Below are positions 31,006 to 40,524 of a stretch of 50,565 nt of DNA, one piece after another (the first letter of the stretch is position 1; the number at the start of each line of letters is the position of its first letter). The DNA is taken from contig JACUUM010000008.1 in NCBI GenBank assembly GCA_014859305.1, forward strand, positions 1 through 50,565. Reading direction: 5' to 3'. This stretch comes from Coriobacteriia bacterium (GTDB lineage: Bacteria; Actinomycetota; Coriobacteriia; Anaerosomatales; Kmv31). The notes beneath the pieces were generated by a model. The model ran no database searches. It was not told the origin of the DNA and was given only the letters and a program-made list of their open reading frames with translations. Both the position numbers and the translations under genes were made by a program.

Positions 31006-32226
31006 TCATTCCGAGCGCCCGGAAGCGGCCTCGCGCATGCGCGATACCAGCTCCTCGGCCACGGCGGGGTCGTTCCCCCACGGAGGCAGGAGCTGCACCG
31101 CCGCCTCGGTCCTGGCGAGCTCGGCCCCGCGAGCCAGGTCGAGCATGGTGACGAGCGTCTCGGTGGGGAACCCCGCCGGCACGACAGCGACCCGCTCGCA
31201 GCCCAGCGCCGCGAGGTGACGTACCGTCTCGGTGACGTCCGGAGTCCTCCAGTCCGCCCACGCGGTCCGGATCCGCTCCCCTGGCACGCCGCCCTCCGCG
31301 ATGAGGGTGCGGACTCGCCCCGCGAACGCCGCCTCCTGCCGGTCGAACTCCTCGTGCGCGCCCTCCCACGCGGGGGGCTGCGCCTCCATGACCAGCGTGA
31401 CGCCGGCCTCCGGGCTCCCGTCGGCGAACGACGAGGCTCGGCCGGCGACCAGCCCGGCGAGCCGCTCCGAGGACCACATCGGCTGGGTGTAGAGGATCTC
31501 CAGACCGGCCTCGCCGGGCTTCAGCGCGTCGAGCGCCATCTTGGCGCGCTCCTCGGGATGGCCCTCCGCCACGGCGAGAGTGGCGACCACGATGCGGGAG
31601 CACCCGGCCTGCGCGGCCGCATGGACGGCCTCCGCCAGCGACCCCGGCGGCTCGCACCACGCCACGCGCACCTCCGGCACGCCCAGGGCGCGGGCCGAGC
31701 GCTGGGCGAGGCCGAGGACCGTCTGGCGCGCCGGGCTGCGCCCCTGGGCGAGGCGGTAGCGAGCCTTCTGGGCGGCGAAGAGGAACGGCAGGAGTGCGAC
31801 GGGGACGAACATCGAGCCGGACCCCGAGACCTCGGCGACGGTGGCCGCCGCCCAGCGCGGGTGGTACCGTTCGGGCTCGGCGCGCGACAGCAGCACGTAG
31901 GCCGGTGAACGCGCGGGATCGCCCTCCACACGCGGCAGTGGAGCGGGCGGGGCCGAGCGGGCGAGCAGGGGGAGCATCGAGGCGGCGAGCAGGTAGCCCC
32001 CGAGGAAGGCGGCGAGTCCGAGCGCGCCGGAGAGGACCGCCGCGCCGACCGAGCCGTGGCGGGCGGACAGCAGGACGAGACCCCAGCCCGACATCGCGAC
32101 CATCCCGGCGGCGCCTGCGAAGGCCGGTGGCTCGTACCGGGGAGGCGCTATCAGCAGCGCCACGAGGGCCGCGCCGGCGCCCACGGCGCCGAGCAGCAGC
32201 GCGAGCCACGCCCACGAAAGCGCCAC
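31006..32226 (-). CDS. Membrane-anchored ferrochelatase-like protein without the usual catalytic residues
   Basis: A 406-residue protein. Residues 1-90 hold about three membrane segments. The rest follows the ferrochelatase (HemH) layout: AYVLLSRAEPE, then KARYRLAQGRSPARQTVLGLAQR, then VRVAWCEPPGSLAEAV, AGCSRIVVATL, and near the end TAWADWRTPDVTETVRHLAAL and CERVAVVPAGFPTETLV. Where ferrochelatases have the catalytic His (AHS/G-x-P), this has EAQPP (Gln283), and the Glu of the 'FxxDHxET' element also seems replaced (near Val358). It may bind a tetrapyrrole or metal without insertion activity. The GTG at 32226 has GAGGAGGGG upstream. It diverges from the fmdB-DUF302 pair. Confidence 0.65.
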   Translation of the reverse strand: MALSWAWLALLLGAVGAGAALVALLIAPPRYEPPAFAGAAGMVAMSGWGLVLLSARHGSVGAAVLSGALGLAAFLGGYLLAASMLPLLARSAPPAPLPRVEGDPARSPAYVLLSRAEPERYHPRWAAATVAEVSGSGSMFVPVALLPFLFAAQKARYRLAQGRSPARQTVLGLAQRSARALGVPEVRVAWCEPPGSLAEAVHAAAQAGCSRIVVATLAVAEGHPEERAKMALDALKPGEAGLEILYTQPMWSSERLAGLVAGRASSFADGSPEAGVTLVMEAQPPAWEGAHEEFDRQEAAFAGRVRTLIAEGGVPGERIRTAWADWRTPDVTETVRHLAALGCERVAVVPAGFPTETLVTMLDLARGAELARTEAAVQLLPPWGNDPAVAEELVSRMREAASGRSE

Positions 32227-32331: not shown

Positions 32332-32361
32332 TTGACGGCCCAATACCCCGGGGGGTATGAT
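32332..32361 (+). promoter_or_regulatory. Promoter with CsoR-family operator ahead of the FmdB-DUF302 pair
   Basis: TTGACG (32332-32337), an 18-base spacer and TATGAT (32356-32361) form a good promoter. The palindrome ATACCCCGGGGGGTAT at 32343-32358 fills the spacer and enters the -10 box, the site expected for a repressor. The sequence is the G-tract type operator known for CsoR/CstR proteins, and a CsoR-family gene is about 1 kb downstream. The gap 32227-32331 holds nothing else I can name. Confidence 0.75.
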
Positions 32362-32396: not shown

Positions 32397-32594
32397 TTGC
32401 CGACGTACGAGCTGAAGTGTGACCGGTGCGGGGAGCGTCACGAACGGTTCGTTCCGCGCTTGCTGCAGGAAGACGACAAGGTATGTCCCGCGTGCGGTTC
32501 CACGGATGTCCGCACCGGGGTGGGCGGCGGCTACATCAGCGCCCTGAAGAGCGGGTCGGGATCCGGCTGTGCGCCTGGAGGAGGCTTCACTTGA
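32397..32594 (+). CDS. FmdB-family zinc ribbon protein
   Basis: A 65-residue small protein of the FmdB regulatory-protein type. It has two CxxC pairs, Cys8-Cys11 and Cys30-Cys33, in the expected frame MPTYELKCDRCGERHERF and VCPACGS. A Gly/Ser-rich tail follows. The start is a TTG with GGAGGGAAGG at 32385-32394. The molecular role of this family is unknown. The upstream palindrome places it under the CsoR-family repressor, and its stop overlaps the DUF302 start (TTGA). Confidence 0.85.
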   Translation: MPTYELKCDRCGERHERFVPRLLQEDDKVCPACGSTDVRTGVGGGYISALKSGSGSGCAPGGGFT

Positions 32595-33016
32595 AGGTGA
32601 CCGACGTCCGGTCGGGCGATGGAGGGTTCCCGGAGGACTACACGTACGAGCGGCGCAGCGGCGCCGGGTTCGACGAGACCCTCGGGTCGATCACGCACGC
32701 CATCGAGTCGCGGGACCTGGTCGTGCGCAGGACCTACGACATCCAGTCGGCGCTGGAGGCGAAGGGCTTCCCCATCCAGCCGCTGACGATCCTCGAGGTG
32801 GGGCGTGCGCACGATTCCTCCTCGACGGAGCTTGCGGGGCTGCTCACGCCGTTGCGTTTCAACGTCTACCAGAGGGGCGACCACGTCTTCGTGTCGGCCC
32901 TGCGGCCGTCGTTCGTGACGCGTCTCGTGTCCGATGACGCCGTCGTGCGCCTCGCGGCGTGCCTCGAGCGCGACGTGCTCGCGGTCGTGGACGCGGCGGC
33001 CGGGGACGGGACCTGA
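32591..33016 (+). CDS. DUF302-family protein
   Basis: A 141-residue protein whose centre fits DUF302: SGAGFDETLGSITHAIESRD, then YDIQSALEAKGFPIQPLTILEVG and LLTPLRFNVYQRGDHVFVSAL. The family binds an unknown ligand and is sometimes encoded near sulfur-metabolism genes (from memory). The start is the TTG at 32591, overlapping the previous stop, with GGAGGAGG at 32577-32584; a GTG at 32597 is the alternative. It is the second gene of the operator-controlled pair. No signal peptide is seen, so it is likely cytoplasmic. The final stop is 27 bases from the convergent repressor gene. Confidence 0.8.
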   Translation: MKVTDVRSGDGGFPEDYTYERRSGAGFDETLGSITHAIESRDLVVRRTYDIQSALEAKGFPIQPLTILEVGRAHDSSSTELAGLLTPLRFNVYQRGDHVFVSALRPSFVTRLVSDDAVVRLAACLERDVLAVVDAAAGDGT

Positions 33017-33043: not shown

Positions 33044-33358
33044 CTACTTCACGCAGGACGAGTACTTCAGGAACACGCCGATCGCTTCGTCGATGAGGTC
33101 GTCCCGGGCCGTGACATCCTCCGAGATGAGGCACTTCTTCATGGAGTAGCCGATGATGTGCATCCCGACCTGGTTGAGGGCTGCCTTCGCGGCCATGATC
33201 TGAGTCAGGACGGCCTCGCACTCCTTACCCGACTCGACCATGGACTGCAGGCCGCGCATCTGGCCCTCCAGGCGCTTCAGCCGGTTGACGATGCGCTTGC
33301 GCTCGGCCTCCGAGACCTCGAGCATCTCGGCCGTGGCGACCGTGTCGTCATGGGACAT
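33044..33358 (-). CDS. CsoR-family repressor with a CstR-like cysteine pair
   Basis: A 104-residue all-helical DUF156 repressor. RIVNRLKRLEGQMRGL (residues 22-37) is the DNA-contact helix signature. Copper-sensing CsoR uses Cys-x24-His-x3-Cys. Here Cys47 and Cys76 are present, spaced as the outer pair, but the middle position is Ser72, as in CstR of Staphylococcus, which has Asn there and senses persulfides through the two Cys. Asn- or Ser-for-His argues against copper(I). Another His (67) and Cys (102) are off-site. The ATG has AAGGAG upstream. Its promoter contains the matching operator, so it should repress itself. Confidence 0.9.
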   Translation of the reverse strand: MSHDDTVATAEMLEVSEAERKRIVNRLKRLEGQMRGLQSMVESGKECEAVLTQIMAAKAALNQVGMHIIGYSMKKCLISEDVTARDDLIDEAIGVFLKYSSCVK

Positions 33359-33403: not shown

Positions 33404-33432
33404 ATTATACCCCCTAGGGGTATTCCAGGCAA
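33404..33432 (-). promoter_or_regulatory. Autoregulated promoter and operator of the CsoR-family gene
   Basis: Read on the minus strand, TTGCCT (33432-33427), a 17-base spacer and a perfect TATAAT (33409-33404) make a near-ideal promoter. The palindrome ATACCCCCTAGGGGTAT at 33407-33423 fills the spacer. On the plus strand, TATTAT at 33403-33408 could be a -10 box for the divergent CDF gene, but no -35 is obvious. One operator could thus control both directions. Confidence 0.8.
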
Positions 33433-33466: not shown

Positions 33467-34459
33467 ATGGGCTACACGAAGCCCAGCGAGATGCGCTTCG
33501 GCGGGCGACGCGTCCGGACGGTCAGGCGGGTGCTGCTGGCGATCCTGGGACTCAACGCGTCCGTCGCCGCCGCGAAGATCGCCTACGGACTGCTGTCGGG
33601 CTCGATCGCCATGCGAGCCGACGGCTTCCACTCGCTCTTCGACGGCTTGTCGAACGTGATCGGGCTGGTGGGCATCGGCCTGGCGTCCCGTCCGGCGGAC
33701 CGGACGCACCCGTACGGCCACGGCAAGTTCGAGACCTACGCCTCGGCGGCCATCGGCGCCATGCTGATGCTGGCCGCGTACAACGTCGGTTCGGAAGCCC
33801 TGGGCCGGCTGCTGGACGGCCCGGACGGCGCGCCGCGCGTGGACGCCGGCTCCTTCGCCGTCATGCTCGGGACCCTGGCGGTCAACATAGGCGTCACGCT
33901 GTACGAGCGGGGCATCGGACGCCGCATCGGCAGCCAGATCCTCGTCGCGGACGCGAGCCACACCGGCAGCGACGTGCTGGTGAGCCTGGGCGTCATCGCG
34001 GGCCTCGTCGCCGTCCGGCTTGGCTTCCCGGCGGCCGACCCGATCATCGCGCTGCTGGTGGCCGTCGCGATCGTGCTCACCGCGGTCCGCGTGCTCGGCG
34101 AGGCCGGTCTGACGCTCTCGGACAGGGCGAGGATCGATCCGCAGCTGCTGTGCTCCGTCGTCCTCCGGATCCCGGGCGTGCTCGGCTGCCACTCCATCCG
34201 GACCCGGGGCTCGGAGTCCGAGGTGTACGCCGACCTACACATCCAAGTGGAACCCTCCGTGACCGTCGAGCAGGGGCACCTCGTGGCCGAGGAGGTCGAG
34301 CGCGGGGTAACGGAGGCCTTCCCCGAGGTCGTGGACGCGATCGTGCACCTCGAGCCTCTCGACGCCTACCAGGTCTCCAAGACCGAGTCCGAGGCCGAGC
34401 AGGGCCTTGCCCCCGCCCCCGCGGCCGGCCCCGCGGACCGGCCCGAGCGGCGCCGCTGA
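33467..34459 (+). CDS. Cation diffusion facilitator (CDF) family transporter
   Basis: A 330-residue CDF exporter: six hydrophobic segments, then a cytoplasmic domain (from ~residue 210) with the ferredoxin-like fold. The transport-site motifs are HSLFD in segment 2 (ADGFHSLFDGLSN) and HTGSD in segment 5 (ADASHTGSDVLVS), the His-Asp/His-Asp type linked to zinc. HPYGHGKFE is the family loop after segment 2. The start is the ATG at 33467 with GAGGAGGG; open frame upstream lacks homology. It is divergent from the CsoR-family gene and shares the operator region. Zn, Fe or Mn export are all possible. Confidence 0.92.
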   Translation: MGYTKPSEMRFGGRRVRTVRRVLLAILGLNASVAAAKIAYGLLSGSIAMRADGFHSLFDGLSNVIGLVGIGLASRPADRTHPYGHGKFETYASAAIGAMLMLAAYNVGSEALGRLLDGPDGAPRVDAGSFAVMLGTLAVNIGVTLYERGIGRRIGSQILVADASHTGSDVLVSLGVIAGLVAVRLGFPAADPIIALLVAVAIVLTAVRVLGEAGLTLSDRARIDPQLLCSVVLRIPGVLGCHSIRTRGSESEVYADLHIQVEPSVTVEQGHLVAEEVERGVTEAFPEVVDAIVHLEPLDAYQVSKTESEAEQGLAPAPAAGPADRPERRR

Positions 34460-34614: not shown

Positions 34615-34637
34615 TCGCGCTGTGGGGATATACTGAG

Positions 34638-34653
34638 TGGTACGCGGTTTGCT
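34638..34653 (+). promoter_or_regulatory. Sigma-54 (-24/-12) promoter of the rpoN operon
   Basis: TGGTACGCGGTTTGCT fits the consensus TGGCACG-N4-TTGCW at all fixed positions but one, with GG and GC 12 bases apart. The start of transcription would be near 34664, about 40 bases before the rpoN ATG. A TATACT at 34629-34634 may be the -10 of an overlapping housekeeping promoter giving basal expression; no clear -35 accompanies it. Confidence 0.75.
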
Positions 34654-34702
34654 AACGCTCGCGCCCCTTGAAGCGGCGACGGGACGGGCCGGGGAGCCCA
34701 CG

Positions 34703-36097
34703 ATGGAGATCACGCAACGGCCGGAGCTCAAACAGAAGGTCACCCTCTCGCCCCAGGTCTACCAGGGCCTGAGCATCCTCGCGATGCCCATCGCCGACCT
34801 CCAGGCGCTCGTCGAGATGGAGATGCTGGAGAACCCGGTGCTCGAGGTGGAGGAGTTCGAGACCGATCCGGCGGAAGCCGAGGAGGATCGGCTGGACACG
34901 GGCGAGGACGAGCGCGCGTGGGACGAGTGGCTGGACATGTACGAGGACCTCGAGGCCTCGGAGCCGGTCTCGCCTCGGGACCCGAACGCCGAGGCCGTCA
35001 ACACCGAGGAGTTCGTCTCCGGCGTCCAGAGCTTCGACGACTACCTCCTCGACCAGATCGGCATGCTCTCCCTGAAGCCGGGCGTCGAGGCCGCGGCGCG
35101 CGCCGTCGTCGGCAGCCTGGACCCGGACGGTTTCTTCGCGGGAGACCTCGCCGAGGTGACGCGTATCGCCGCGGTCACGCCCGAGGAGGCCGAGGAGGGA
35201 CTGCGTGTCGTGCAGCAGCTCGACCCCCCGGGTGTGGGCGCGAGGGACCTCGCCGAGGCGCTGAAGATCCAGATGGTCTACCTCGGGCTCGAGGAGCCCG
35301 TGCTCGAACGCATCGTCGAGGAGCACCTCGACGACATCGCCGCGAACAGGTTCCGGAAGGTCTCTCGAGCGCTTCGCACCGACGAGCGCGAGGTGCGGCG
35401 ATTGGTGGATCTGCTGCGCGACCTCAACCCGCGGCCGGCGGGAGCGTTCTCGCCCGGCCCCTCGCCCGGCTACATAGTCCCCGACGTCACCCTCCGCCGC
35501 ATCGGCGACGAATGGCTGATCATCCCGAACAACGAATCCGTCCCCACGCTCCGTGTCAGCCCCCGCTACCGCTCGATGTTGCGCTCGGGATCGAAGGCCG
35601 ACGATGAGACGCGCCGCTACCTGAAGGACAAGATCCGGTCCGCCGAGAGCTTCATCCGCAACGTCGACCGGCGCAAGGACACCGTGAGCCGCATCGCGCA
35701 GATCATCCTCGAGGTGCAGCGCGACTTCTTCGAGGACGGCCAGGGACCGCTGCGGCCGCTGCGCCTGGAGGACGTGGCCGTGGAGATCGGGGTGCACCTC
35801 TCCACGGTGAGCCGCGGGGTGACCGGCAAATACATGGCGACGCCGTACGGGCTGTTCGAACTGAAGCACTTCTTCTCGGGAGGGTACCGGACCTCCACGG
35901 GGCTGGACGTCGCGTCCACGTCGGTGAAGAACCATATCCGAGAGCTGGTGCGAGAGGAGGACCCGGACAAGCCGCTGTCGGACCAGAAGCTCGCCGAGGT
36001 CCTCTCGAGCGAGGGTATCTCAGTGGCCAGGCGTACGGTCGCCAAGTACCGCGAGGAACTGGGGATCGAGCCGTCCTGGGCACGGAGGCGTAGATGA
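34703..36097 (+). CDS. rpoN: RNA polymerase sigma-54 factor
   Basis: A 464-residue RpoN. The Gln/Leu-rich activator-interacting region I is at residues 1-50 (QKVTLSPQVYQGLSILAMPI). An acidic linker (residues ~52-110), the core-binding region, and the helix-turn-helix with VHLSTVSRGVTGKYM come next. The C-terminal RpoN box ARRTVAKYRE at residues 442-451 recognises the -24 element. I start at the ATG at 34703 with GGGGAG ahead; earlier starts lack homology. It overlaps the kinase gene as ATGA. Its promoter looks sigma-54 dependent, so it may regulate itself. Sigma-54 is absent from most well-studied actinobacteria. Confidence 0.96.
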   Translation: MEITQRPELKQKVTLSPQVYQGLSILAMPIADLQALVEMEMLENPVLEVEEFETDPAEAEEDRLDTGEDERAWDEWLDMYEDLEASEPVSPRDPNAEAVNTEEFVSGVQSFDDYLLDQIGMLSLKPGVEAAARAVVGSLDPDGFFAGDLAEVTRIAAVTPEEAEEGLRVVQQLDPPGVGARDLAEALKIQMVYLGLEEPVLERIVEEHLDDIAANRFRKVSRALRTDEREVRRLVDLLRDLNPRPAGAFSPGPSPGYIVPDVTLRRIGDEWLIIPNNESVPTLRVSPRYRSMLRSGSKADDETRRYLKDKIRSAESFIRNVDRRKDTVSRIAQIILEVQRDFFEDGQGPLRPLRLEDVAVEIGVHLSTVSRGVTGKYMATPYGLFELKHFFSGGYRTSTGLDVASTSVKNHIRELVREEDPDKPLSDQKLAEVLSSEGISVARRTVAKYREELGIEPSWARRRR

Positions 36098-37609
36098 TCC
36101 CGATGGCGGAGAGCGTCCGCGAGACGGAGGAGAGGCGGCAGGCGGCACGGGACGTGTCGATCGTGGCGGCGATGCTGTCGGCGGTCGTGCTGCTGCACCT
36201 GTTCACCAGCACCGCGCCCGAGCACCTCATCTACCACACGCTCTACCGGCGGCTCGCCTACCTCCCCGTCTTGTTCGCCGCCTTCCGGTTCGGTCTGCGG
36301 GGCGGCACTCTGACGGCGCTGGCCGCGGCCATCCCGTTCGCCATCCACGCGCAGATGAGCCTGGGCGGACTGCTCGGCGGCGGCGGCGACAACCTGCTCG
36401 AGATCGTCATGTACGTGGTGATAGGCGCCCTGTTCGGAAGTCTTCGCGACATCGAGGAGCGCAAGACGATGGGGCTGCGGGAGGTCGGTCGCCAGCTCGA
36501 GGACGCGTATCGGAAGCTGGAGGAGCGCGCCATCCAGCTGATCAACATCCAAGACTACACCCAGTCGATACTCCGCTCCATCACCTCGGGCGTGATCACC
36601 ATCGGACCCGACGGCTCGGTGGCGACCGTCAACCCCGCCGCCGAGCGCATCCTGGGGATGTCCGAGTTCGAGGTCGTGCCCAAGGCCATCCGCGCCCTGT
36701 TCAGCGACGACGCCGGGCTGGGCAACGACGTGATGAAGGTGCTCGAGGGCAGACTGCCCAAGGCGGTGCGCGAGGTGACGCTCGTGACCAGGGGCGGCAA
36801 GACGATACACGCGCAGGTCTCCGCGTCGCGCATGCGCGCCGTGGGCGGCAGGATCCTCGGGGCCGTCGTCACCATCGAGGACATCTCGGAGGTCAAGGCG
36901 CTGACCGAGCAGCTCATCCGCGCCGACCGGCTCGCCGCGCTGGGCGAGCTCACCGCCGGCGTCGCACACGAGGTGCGCAACCCTCTGGGCATCATCCGGG
37001 CCTCGGTGCAGCTCGTCGAGGAGGCCCAGTGCGACCCGGCGCGGCTCCGGGAGGCCACCGGCGTGGTCAAGCAGGAGATCGACCGCCTCGACAAGGTGAT
37101 CAAGGCGCTGCTGGACTTCGGCCGCCCTTCGCCGCCGACGCTGGTACGAACGGACGTCGAGGACGTGCTGCGGGACGTCGTGCTGTTCACCCGGCGTTTC
37201 GCCGGGAGGCGCAAGGTGCGGATCCGAGAGTCCTTCCCGGGCGACCTGCCGCCGGTCCTCGGCGACCCCGACCAGCTCAAGCAGGTCTTCTTGAACCTGG
37301 TGACGAACGCGGTACAGGTGATGGGCGAGGAGGGGGGCACCGTGGAGGTGCGCACCGGGACCGAGAACGGCTTCGTCGTCGCCGAGGTGAGGGACGACGG
37401 GCCCGGGATGGCGCCCGAGGAGCTCGGCAAGATCTTCGACCCCTTCTACTCGAAGCGTCCCGGCGGCACGGGGTTGGGGCTCACGATCGTGCACAGGATC
37501 GTCGATGAGCACGACGGGCACATAGAGGTTCGGAGCACCGAGGGGCGAGGCACCGTGTTCATGGTGTCGTTGCCGGCGCAGTCGGGAGCTGGTGGGATGA
37601 GGGAGGAGC

Positions 37610-37635
<26 letters not shown>
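36094..37635 (+). CDS. PAS-domain sensor histidine kinase (NtrB-like)
   Basis: A 513-residue kinase. Three to four membrane segments lie in residues 22-115. A coiled-coil (~125-155), a PAS domain (~155-268, ITSGVITIGPDGSVATVNPA) and the dimerisation/phosphoacceptor helix with His292 in GVAHEVRNPLG follow. The ATPase domain shows NLVTNAVQVM, DDGPGMAPEEL and GGTGLGLTIVHRI. It should phosphorylate the activator encoded next. The start overlaps rpoN (ATGA, GGAGG 5 bases before). The gene end overlaps the activator start by 26 bases. The sensed signal is unknown; the short loops between membrane segments suggest an intramembrane cue. Confidence 0.93.
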
Positions 37636-38962
<1,327 letters not shown>

Positions 38963-39431: not shown

Positions 39432-39510
39432 GGCGGTGCGATCCGAGGCGCGCGGGGTCGTGCTCGCGGGGTACAAGCCCGTATCGGGCCATCGCAGGGA
39501 GGAGAGCGAC

Positions 39511-39723
39511 GTGGCCGAGGTCGACATCCGCACCACCGGTATGCACTGCCACTCGTGCATCATGCTCATACAGATGAACGTGGGAGACCTCGAAGGGGTC
39601 GAGAAGGTCGAGGCGGACCTGGCCTCCGGCGTCACTCACGTCCTGTACGACCCCGACAGGGTGACGGTCGAGCAGATCGTCAAGGAGATCGAGTCGACCG
39701 GGTACGGGGCGCAGCCGCTCTAA
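39511..39723 (+). CDS. HMA-domain (copper chaperone-like) protein
   Basis: A 70-residue heavy-metal-associated domain. The metal loop reads GMHCHSC (Cys13, Cys16), a histidine-rich variant of GMTCxxC. The later STGYGAQPL end is typical. Such proteins carry Cu(I), or other soft metals, to P-type ATPases; no such ATPase is in the window. I start at the GTG at 39511 with GGGAGG at 39498-39503; upstream in-frame starts would add a non-conserved tail. It is probably co-transcribed with the zinc-ribbon protein from the sigma-54 promoter. Confidence 0.85.
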   Translation: MAEVDIRTTGMHCHSCIMLIQMNVGDLEGVEKVEADLASGVTHVLYDPDRVTVEQIVKEIESTGYGAQPL

Positions 39724-39733
39724 GGAGCGCGGG

Positions 39734-39761
39734 TTGCGTCAGGATACCCCCCGGGTATGGT
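39734..39761 (+). promoter_or_regulatory. Promoter with CsoR-family operator ahead of ccdA
   Basis: TTGCGT (39734-39739), a 16-base spacer and TATGGT (39756-39761) make a plausible promoter. ATACCCCCCGGGTAT at 39744-39758 occupies the spacer and part of the -10 box, as at the other two sites. The half-sites ATACCC and GGGTAT are intact, but the centre is a base or two shorter than at the other two sites. Confidence 0.65.
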
Positions 39762-39795: not shown

Positions 39796-40524
39796 ATGGG
39801 TGCCGGGGTGGGTCTCGCTGCCGCGTTCGCCGCGGGCATCGTGTCGTTCCTGTCACCGTGCGTGCTCCCCCTCGTCCCGGGCTACCTGTCGGTCGTCACC
39901 GGCGTGAGCCTGTCTGAGTTGAAGAGCGGCCAGCGCCGAACCTGGAGCGTGCTCGCGCCCAGCTTGCTGTTCGTGTCCGGTTTCGCCGTCGTCTTCATCG
40001 CCCTGGGGGCCTCCGCCTCGGTCCTGGGCGCCTTCCTGGCTCCTTACCGCGAGGGACTGACGCGATCGGCGGGCGTTCTCGTGTTCGCGATGGGCTTCCT
40101 CATGCTCGGGGTGGTGAAGATCCCTCGGCTGTACGGAGAGGCCCGGTTCGACATGGCGCGCGCGCGCACGTTCGGCCGCGGCGCGTCGCTGTTGATGGGG
40201 ATGGCCTTCGGCTTCGGCTGGACGCCGTGCGTCGGTCCGATCCTCGCCTCGATCCTCACGCTCGCCGGCTCCTCGGCCGACGTCGGACGGGGAGCGGCAT
40301 TGCTCGCGGCGTACTCTTCGGGTCTCGGCTTGCCCTTCATCGGCGTCGCCCTGCTGTTCGGCAGGGTGGAGCCGGTCCTGCGGTGGCTGTCGGCACACGC
40401 GTCGACGGTCAACCGGGTCGCCGGCACCCTTCTGATGGTGGTCGGCGTCCTGATCTTCACGGACACGTTCCGGCTGCTCTCCGCGTGGCTCCTGCGAGCG
40501 GCCCCCTTCCTCGCCATGGGATGA
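39796..40524 (+). CDS. ccdA: CcdA-type thiol-disulfide electron carrier
   Basis: A 242-residue membrane protein of the CcdA/DsbD-beta family, which passes electrons from cytoplasmic thioredoxin to thiols outside. Six hydrophobic segments are seen. The two redox cysteines are in FLSPCVLPLVPGY (segment 1, Cys22) and FGWTPCVGPIL (segment 4). The ATG has GGAGG about 7 bases upstream. No thioredoxin-like partner is adjacent. The operator-bearing promoter just upstream ties it to the CsoR-family repressor, and readthrough from the sigma-54 operon could add a second control. Confidence 0.92.
   Translation: MGAGVGLAAAFAAGIVSFLSPCVLPLVPGYLSVVTGVSLSELKSGQRRTWSVLAPSLLFVSGFAVVFIALGASASVLGAFLAPYREGLTRSAGVLVFAMGFLMLGVVKIPRLYGEARFDMARARTFGRGASLLMGMAFGFGWTPCVGPILASILTLAGSSADVGRGAALLAAYSSGLGLPFIGVALLFGRVEPVLRWLSAHASTVNRVAGTLLMVVGVLIFTDTFRLLSAWLLRAAPFLAMG

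Follow-up and report, generated by a model that had tools for sequence, protein, structure and literature searches.

The csoR gene lies within a window of 50,565 nucleotides, the whole stretch of DNA that we analysed, and most probably encodes a CstR-like reactive-sulfur repressor; it would control a dispersed reductive persulfide and thiol regulon that is partly selenoprotein-based, a reading to which we assign a probability of about 0.77. Comparison of sequences across the order supports the cysteine pattern of the repressor, its operators and their placement in promoters, the composition of the regulon and the recoding of UGA in two of its genes. A gene that posed the question of copper or sulfur is thereby given a concrete predicted regulon, conserved in an order of Actinomycetota whose members are mostly uncultured, and two selenoprotein families gain a predicted context, sulfane-sulfur or thiol stress, of a kind that most prokaryotic selenoproteins lack.

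A CsoR-family repressor with a third cysteine

The gene recognized in the initial annotation as encoding a CsoR-family repressor is a real open reading frame, and its product scored 81.2 bits against PF02583 in a Pfam search (cut-off 22.8); no other protein of the 2.13-Mb, 98%-complete source genome belongs to this family.

33044..33358, minus strand: csoR, predicted CstR-like CsoR/DUF156 repressor, 104 aa, ATG start, with Cys47, Ser72, Cys76 and Cys102

An AlphaFold model of the monomer (low confidence, pLDDT 65) contains three helices spanning residues 17-42, 47-78 and 82-101, and as a monomer says nothing about the intersubunit site. Cys47 and Cys76 are 29 residues apart (76-47), as are C31 and C60 of Staphylococcus aureus CstR, which form a crosslink (PMC5480029), and Ser72 aligns with the position of the copper-ligand His. 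Both points had been made in the initial annotation and hold throughout the order: in the alignment of 39 distinct orthologs gathered from 64 of 69 genomes, Cys47 and Cys76 are each invariant (39/39), and position 72 is Ser in 37 and Ala in 2 sequences, never His. What had been missed is a third cysteine, Cys102, which lies in a C-terminal KYSSC motif and is present in 35/39 distinct orthologs, those lacking it including the first domains of fused proteins. An equivalent of Cys102 is lacking in every family member used for comparison, 11 of sulfur context and 5 of copper context. Because the best relatives in the class outside the order are about 38% identical or less, the three-cysteine form appears, as far as sampled, to be specific to the order. 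In three genomes (L125, L126 and L127; also L013) csoR has been duplicated and the copies joined, giving a protein of two domains, the second of which retains the Cys102 equivalent in L125 and L126.

Putative operators lie within predicted promoter spacers

Genomes were searched for ATACCC-N0-8-GGGTAT with the reversed pattern as a control; whole genomes and reversed controls were used because the relaxed operator count in the 50-kb window alone is not significant. The source genome (2.13 Mb) contains seven sites of a putative operator, ATACCC-N3-5-GGGTAT, and none of the reversed control. Three of the seven fall in the window, each within a predicted sigma70-type promoter.

33407..33423: operator O1, ATACCCCCTAGGGGTAT, a perfect palindrome in the intergenic region that csoR shares with the divergent CDF gene
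33404..33432, minus strand: predicted csoR promoter of the sigma70 type, TTGCCT-N17-TATAAT, whose spacer is occupied by O1
32343..32358: operator O2, ATACCCCGGGGGGTAT, upstream of fmdB-DUF302
32332..32361, plus strand: predicted promoter of fmdB, TTGACG-N18-TATGAT, containing O2
39744..39758: operator O3, ATACCCCCCGGGTAT, between the HMA gene and the CcdA gene
39734..39761, plus strand: weak predicted promoter into CcdA, TTGCGT-N16-TATGGT, containing O3

Of the two strong operators outside the window, one stands before a rhodanese-thioredoxin gene (C7:42419) and the other before a ferredoxin operon (C33:27496). Two further candidates, C1:25699 at an FAD/Fe-S dehydrogenase gene and C20:14480 in the zwf region, have imperfect operators and no good promoter, and were rejected as regulon sites. 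In four predicted promoters of the source genome, those of csoR, fmdB, rhodanese-thioredoxin and ferredoxin, the spacer separating a -35-like box from a -10 box that begins with TAT is taken up by the operator; the CcdA promoters of relatives are stronger than that in the window, for example TGGACA-N18-TATAAT in L100. A promoter score of at least 9/12 was obtained for 30% of 340 oriented operator sites, compared with 1.9% of flank shuffles. This occupation of the promoter spacer suggests repression by blocking RNA polymerase, and csoR is predicted to be autoregulated through O1 in its own promoter.

Across the order, perfect sites (a stricter pattern) were found in 62/69 genomes and control matches in none of the 69; the stricter pattern occurs in 18/91 other genomes of the class, mostly once. 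When the order genomes are limited to those with a completeness of 90% or more, 47/48 with csoR and 0/3 without it have perfect sites (hypergeometric 1.9e-4, calculated by hand and uncorrected for kinship).

A predicted dispersed regulon, conserved across the order

The csoR operator is present in all 30 order csoR loci checked and a second, O2-type operator in 29, the missing one being cut off by a contig end. In the order, the O2-type operator usually precedes a thioredoxin-FmdB-DUF302 operon (trx-fmdB-DUF302); the source genome lacks the thioredoxin gene at this operon. The genes adjoining the three operators in the window are as follows.

32397..32594, plus strand: FmdB-family zinc-ribbon protein, 65 aa, TIGR02605 at 40.5 bits (cut-off 31.3), first gene behind O2
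32591..33016, plus strand: DUF302-like protein, 141 aa, PF03625 at 18.5 bits (cut-off 23, not reached), second gene behind O2
33467..34459, plus strand: CDF cation efflux transporter, PF01545 at 138 bits, divergent from csoR and sharing O1
39436..39723, plus strand: small HMA-domain protein, PF00403 at 51 bits, just upstream of O3
39796..40524, plus strand: CcdA/DsbD-TM-type transmembrane electron carrier, PF02683 at 57 bits, behind O3

The initial annotation had left the inducer open on account of metal-type neighbours. The CDF gene is indeed the divergent neighbour of csoR, and its position beside O1 makes control by the repressor likely, with no matching promoter toward CDF found at O1 in the promoter search. 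The HMA gene, however, lies at a distance of 6 kb and upstream of the third operator, which sits in a promoter toward CcdA. The HMA gene was rejected as a regulated metal gene, since O3 sits 3′ of it here and in relatives, and it is probably not the gene that O3 controls: a counterpart of O3 was found in 9/9 fetched relatives and in L106, placing an operator at ccdA in 10/10, and the order HMA-operator-CcdA recurs in the fetched relatives, with L105 lacking a called HMA gene there.

The targets outside the window are likewise conserved. An operator lies at most 300 bp upstream of the rhodanese-thioredoxin gene in 27/30 cases and at most 700 bp upstream of the ferredoxin-partner (DUF1462-like) gene in 30/30, and the reversed control, allowed one mismatch, did not occur upstream of any of these 60 target genes (30 of each kind). 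One or a few genomes have additional operators, placed before sufC-sufB, before a gene for an ACR3/BASS-like transporter and, in one genome, before a gene for a CoA-disulfide reductase that carries two rhodanese domains. Genes for persulfide dioxygenase, SQR and TauE were not seen adjoining any operator site examined. The CstR-like role is thus supported by the predicted content of the regulon (rhodanese-thioredoxin, thioredoxin, DUF302, CcdA and, in a single genome, CoADR-rhodanese, without copA), beyond the fingerprint alone on which it had originally been proposed.

Two side observations concern these loci. In four order genomes (L107, L108, L110 and L124) the same operator precedes sufC-sufB, the Fe-S cluster assembly genes. 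A CbiX/ferrochelatase-like protein is encoded at 31006-32226 of the window (minus strand), divergent from the fmdB operon, and its position across the trx-fmdB-DUF302 operator is kept in relatives.

Two regulon members are predicted selenoproteins

Both conserved targets outside the window are interrupted by an in-frame TGA.

C7:41676-42380 (= L022:6674-7381), minus strand: rhodanese-thioredoxin fusion with in-frame TGA
C33:26891-27232 (= L024:6889-7233), minus strand: DUF1462-like ferredoxin partner with in-frame TGA

The rhodanese-thioredoxin gene has a single TGA, which coincides exactly with the active site of the thioredoxin part, TSDG(U)PTC. More than 50 genomes share this single TGA, flanked by homologous sequence to either side, and every full-length match to the fusion has one; some order genomes have further thioredoxin-only copies with TGA. 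The small DUF1462-like protein matches DUF1462 weakly (23.8 bits; cut-off 25) and is matched by none of the NCBIfam models; its TGA context is ACFSGG(U)GPSW, and one TGA stands in the aligned stretch in 61/61 genomes with a match, one of which also has a TAG. SelB and tRNA-Sec were found in the source genome. The TGA of the rhodanese-thioredoxin gene is followed by a 7-bp hairpin, in which 96% of cells are paired and 11 are double-change cells, with a covariation score of 0.321 compared with 0.110 in shuffles; its loop, usually GGTCG, resembles those of known SECIS elements, and such covariation is what a bacterial SECIS would be expected to show. Together, sequence conservation and gene content support the prediction that both proteins are selenoproteins in which UGA is read as selenocysteine. 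A hydrophobic N-terminal stretch suggests that the rhodanese-selenothioredoxin is membrane-anchored. CsoR-family sulfur sensors are already known; in the open-access literature searched we found no paper linking a CsoR-family regulator with selenoproteins.

Proposed mechanism

By analogy with S. aureus CstR and with the Streptomyces coelicolor sensor ScCsoR, we propose CstR-like chemistry at Cys47/Cys76′. The reduced repressor would bind ATACCC-N3-5-GGGTAT in the promoter spacer and block RNA polymerase; persulfides or polysulfides would react with Cys47 and with Cys76′ of the adjacent subunit, linking or modifying them and releasing the repressor. Release would induce csoR itself and a dispersed regulon for sulfane-sulfur reduction and thiol repair, comprising thioredoxin, the membrane-anchored rhodanese-selenothioredoxin, CcdA, ferredoxin with the DUF1462-like selenoprotein, and FmdB/DUF302, to which some species would add CoADR-rhodanese and SufCB. 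A plausible reductive chain would run from cytosolic thioredoxin via CcdA across the membrane to the exported rhodanese-selenothioredoxin; in Escherichia coli, thioredoxin and glutaredoxin reduce sulfane sulfur to H2S (PMC6831875). The CDF pump may export zinc freed from oxidized zinc-thiolates. The metal-type neighbours then pose no contradiction, because S. aureus answers sulfide with a zinc-limitation response (PMC5480029) and zinc leaving cysteine sites would be handled by such a pump. In this scheme we infer the inducer, the cysteine chemistry, the direction of sulfur flow and the roles of CDF and Cys102.

Known systems show the same elements in other combinations. S. aureus CstR, the persulfide sensor of the cst operon, shares the DUF156 fold, two cysteines 29 apart, the lack of a His at the copper position and sulfur-related targets; it differs in having Asn rather than Ser at position 72, and only the repressor described here has a third conserved cysteine. 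Direct control by CstR is believed to be limited to one operon (PMC5480029), with CstA/CstB/SQR as targets, whereas the regulon here would be dispersed over several operons with thioredoxin, CcdA and selenoproteins. ScCsoR (SCO0620), a CsoR-like sulfane-sulfur sensor of an actinomycete that also has a rhodanese target, binds ATACC-N6-GGTAT, the same 16-bp layout as the operator of the order, and dissociates when sulfane sulfur acts on Cys37 (PMC7533328); unlike the present regulon, its targets (persulfide dioxygenase, rhodanese and a sulfite transporter) lie in one cluster (PMC7533328). The operator motif does not by itself name the inducer, because copper CsoR and RicR bind similar G-tract operators (PMC7533328). 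TTHA1953 of Thermus thermophilus is likewise CsoR-like with a dispersed sulfur-gene regulon, but has its own operator, TACNNTACNNNNGTANNGTA, and Sox targets (PMC10318464).

A bolder extension of the CstR-like reading, which we put forward only tentatively, is that these repressors form a new three-cysteine class of the CsoR family tying reactive sulfur or selenium to dedicated selenoproteins. Reductive, selenium-based persulfide clearance would then replace the oxygen-dependent dioxygenase route, and Cys102 might belong to the sensing site, where it could resolve a polysulfide bridge, for instance, or bind a metal or a selenium adduct.

Thiol stress or metal as a less likely inducer

We consider it unlikely, though worth serious thought, that the repressor is a general thiol-redox sensor of disulfide or electrophile stress or of nitroxyl, with no preference for persulfides or polysulfides. 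The targets are generic thiol reductants, HNO also oxidizes S. aureus CstR (PMC5480029), and TTHA1953, whose DNA binding is weakened by disulfide formation, does not respond to NaHS (PMC10318464). However, rhodanese, DUF302 and CoADR-rhodanese are sulfur-related, and sulfur-context relatives with the same fingerprint adjoin persulfide genes: DUF302, rhodanese, thioredoxin and TauE genes stand next to sulfur-context CsoR-family genes on plasmids, annotated cstR included, and DUF302 is annotated beside four such genes.

A copper sensor is improbable. The repressor lacks the Cys-His-Cys ligand set of copper CsoR, with Ser72 in place of His, but the original argument that a protein without this His is not a copper sensor proves weaker than stated, because Cys102 makes a three-thiolate metal site conceivable: in 35/39 orthologs Cys102 could replace the missing His in a possible Cys3 Cu(I) site governing metal efflux, with the CDF gene sharing O1 and the HMA gene beside O3. 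Against this, O3 lies downstream of HMA, CDF proteins are not known to be Cu(I) pumps, and the targets are rhodanese and thioredoxin genes. All 69 order genomes encode heavy-metal ATPases, and many of these enzymes are of the CopA type, bearing CPC and GMTCxSC motifs, yet none of 30 fetched loci has an operator, which leaves copA outside the regulon. A Tyr before the first Cys and a His at position 72 are found in 5/5 copper-context family members and are both lacking in 11/11 sulfur-context members, where position 72 is N, G or A, and in this repressor. Copper CsoR repressors, alike in fold and in their G-tract type of operator, have Tyr-Cys...His...Cys and stand beside copA, compared with Glu-Cys...Ser...Cys and a regulon without copA here.

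In the tree, the order repressors group with sulfur-context sensors, with the copper-context members on one side of the branch (support 89/74, about 100 columns), and this grouping persists when the sensing columns are masked. Placement inside the copper clade, the outcome that the initial annotation had set against its reading, did not occur, but forcing an order-plus-copper clade costs 1.07 log units (p-AU 0.30) and such a clade is not rejected. At about 100 columns the tree is too weak to serve as the deciding test between copper and sulfur, and it weakly favours kinship with sulfur sensors.

Even less probable is a sensor of zinc or another divalent metal serving the CDF pump, for which the divergent CDF gene and the zinc-ribbon protein encoded in the next operon would speak. 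No promoter match toward CDF exists at O1, the majority of targets concern thiol and sulfur redox, and positions 15, 72 and 76, all of them His in E. coli RcnR, are V15, S72 and C76 in this repressor; FrmR has H and T in place of S72 and C76.

The idea that GC-rich composition, and not a regulon, gave rise to the operators could draw on the G-tract palindromes that can arise in such genomes and on the relaxed count in the 50-kb window alone, which is not significant; it is hardly credible and is refuted at the sequence level by the empty reversed controls, the conserved orthologous positions of the operators and their promoter-like context.

Minor observations

The csoR-copA cluster of L017 (Cuspidothrix issatschenkoi CHARLIE-1, NZ_PGEM01000217.1) lies on a contig of 30% GC and is practically identical to the Staphylococcus loci L015 and L016; the contig is probably a contamination of the cyanobacterial assembly. 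Reading of the sequence at 34637-36097 and 36094-38962 of the window indicated a putative gene for sigma-54 (RpoN) and, after it, putative genes for a PAS histidine kinase and for an activator of the NtrC type. Sigma-54 is unusual for Actinomycetota, and an RpoN-like gene also adjoins the csoR cluster in relatives L008-L012.
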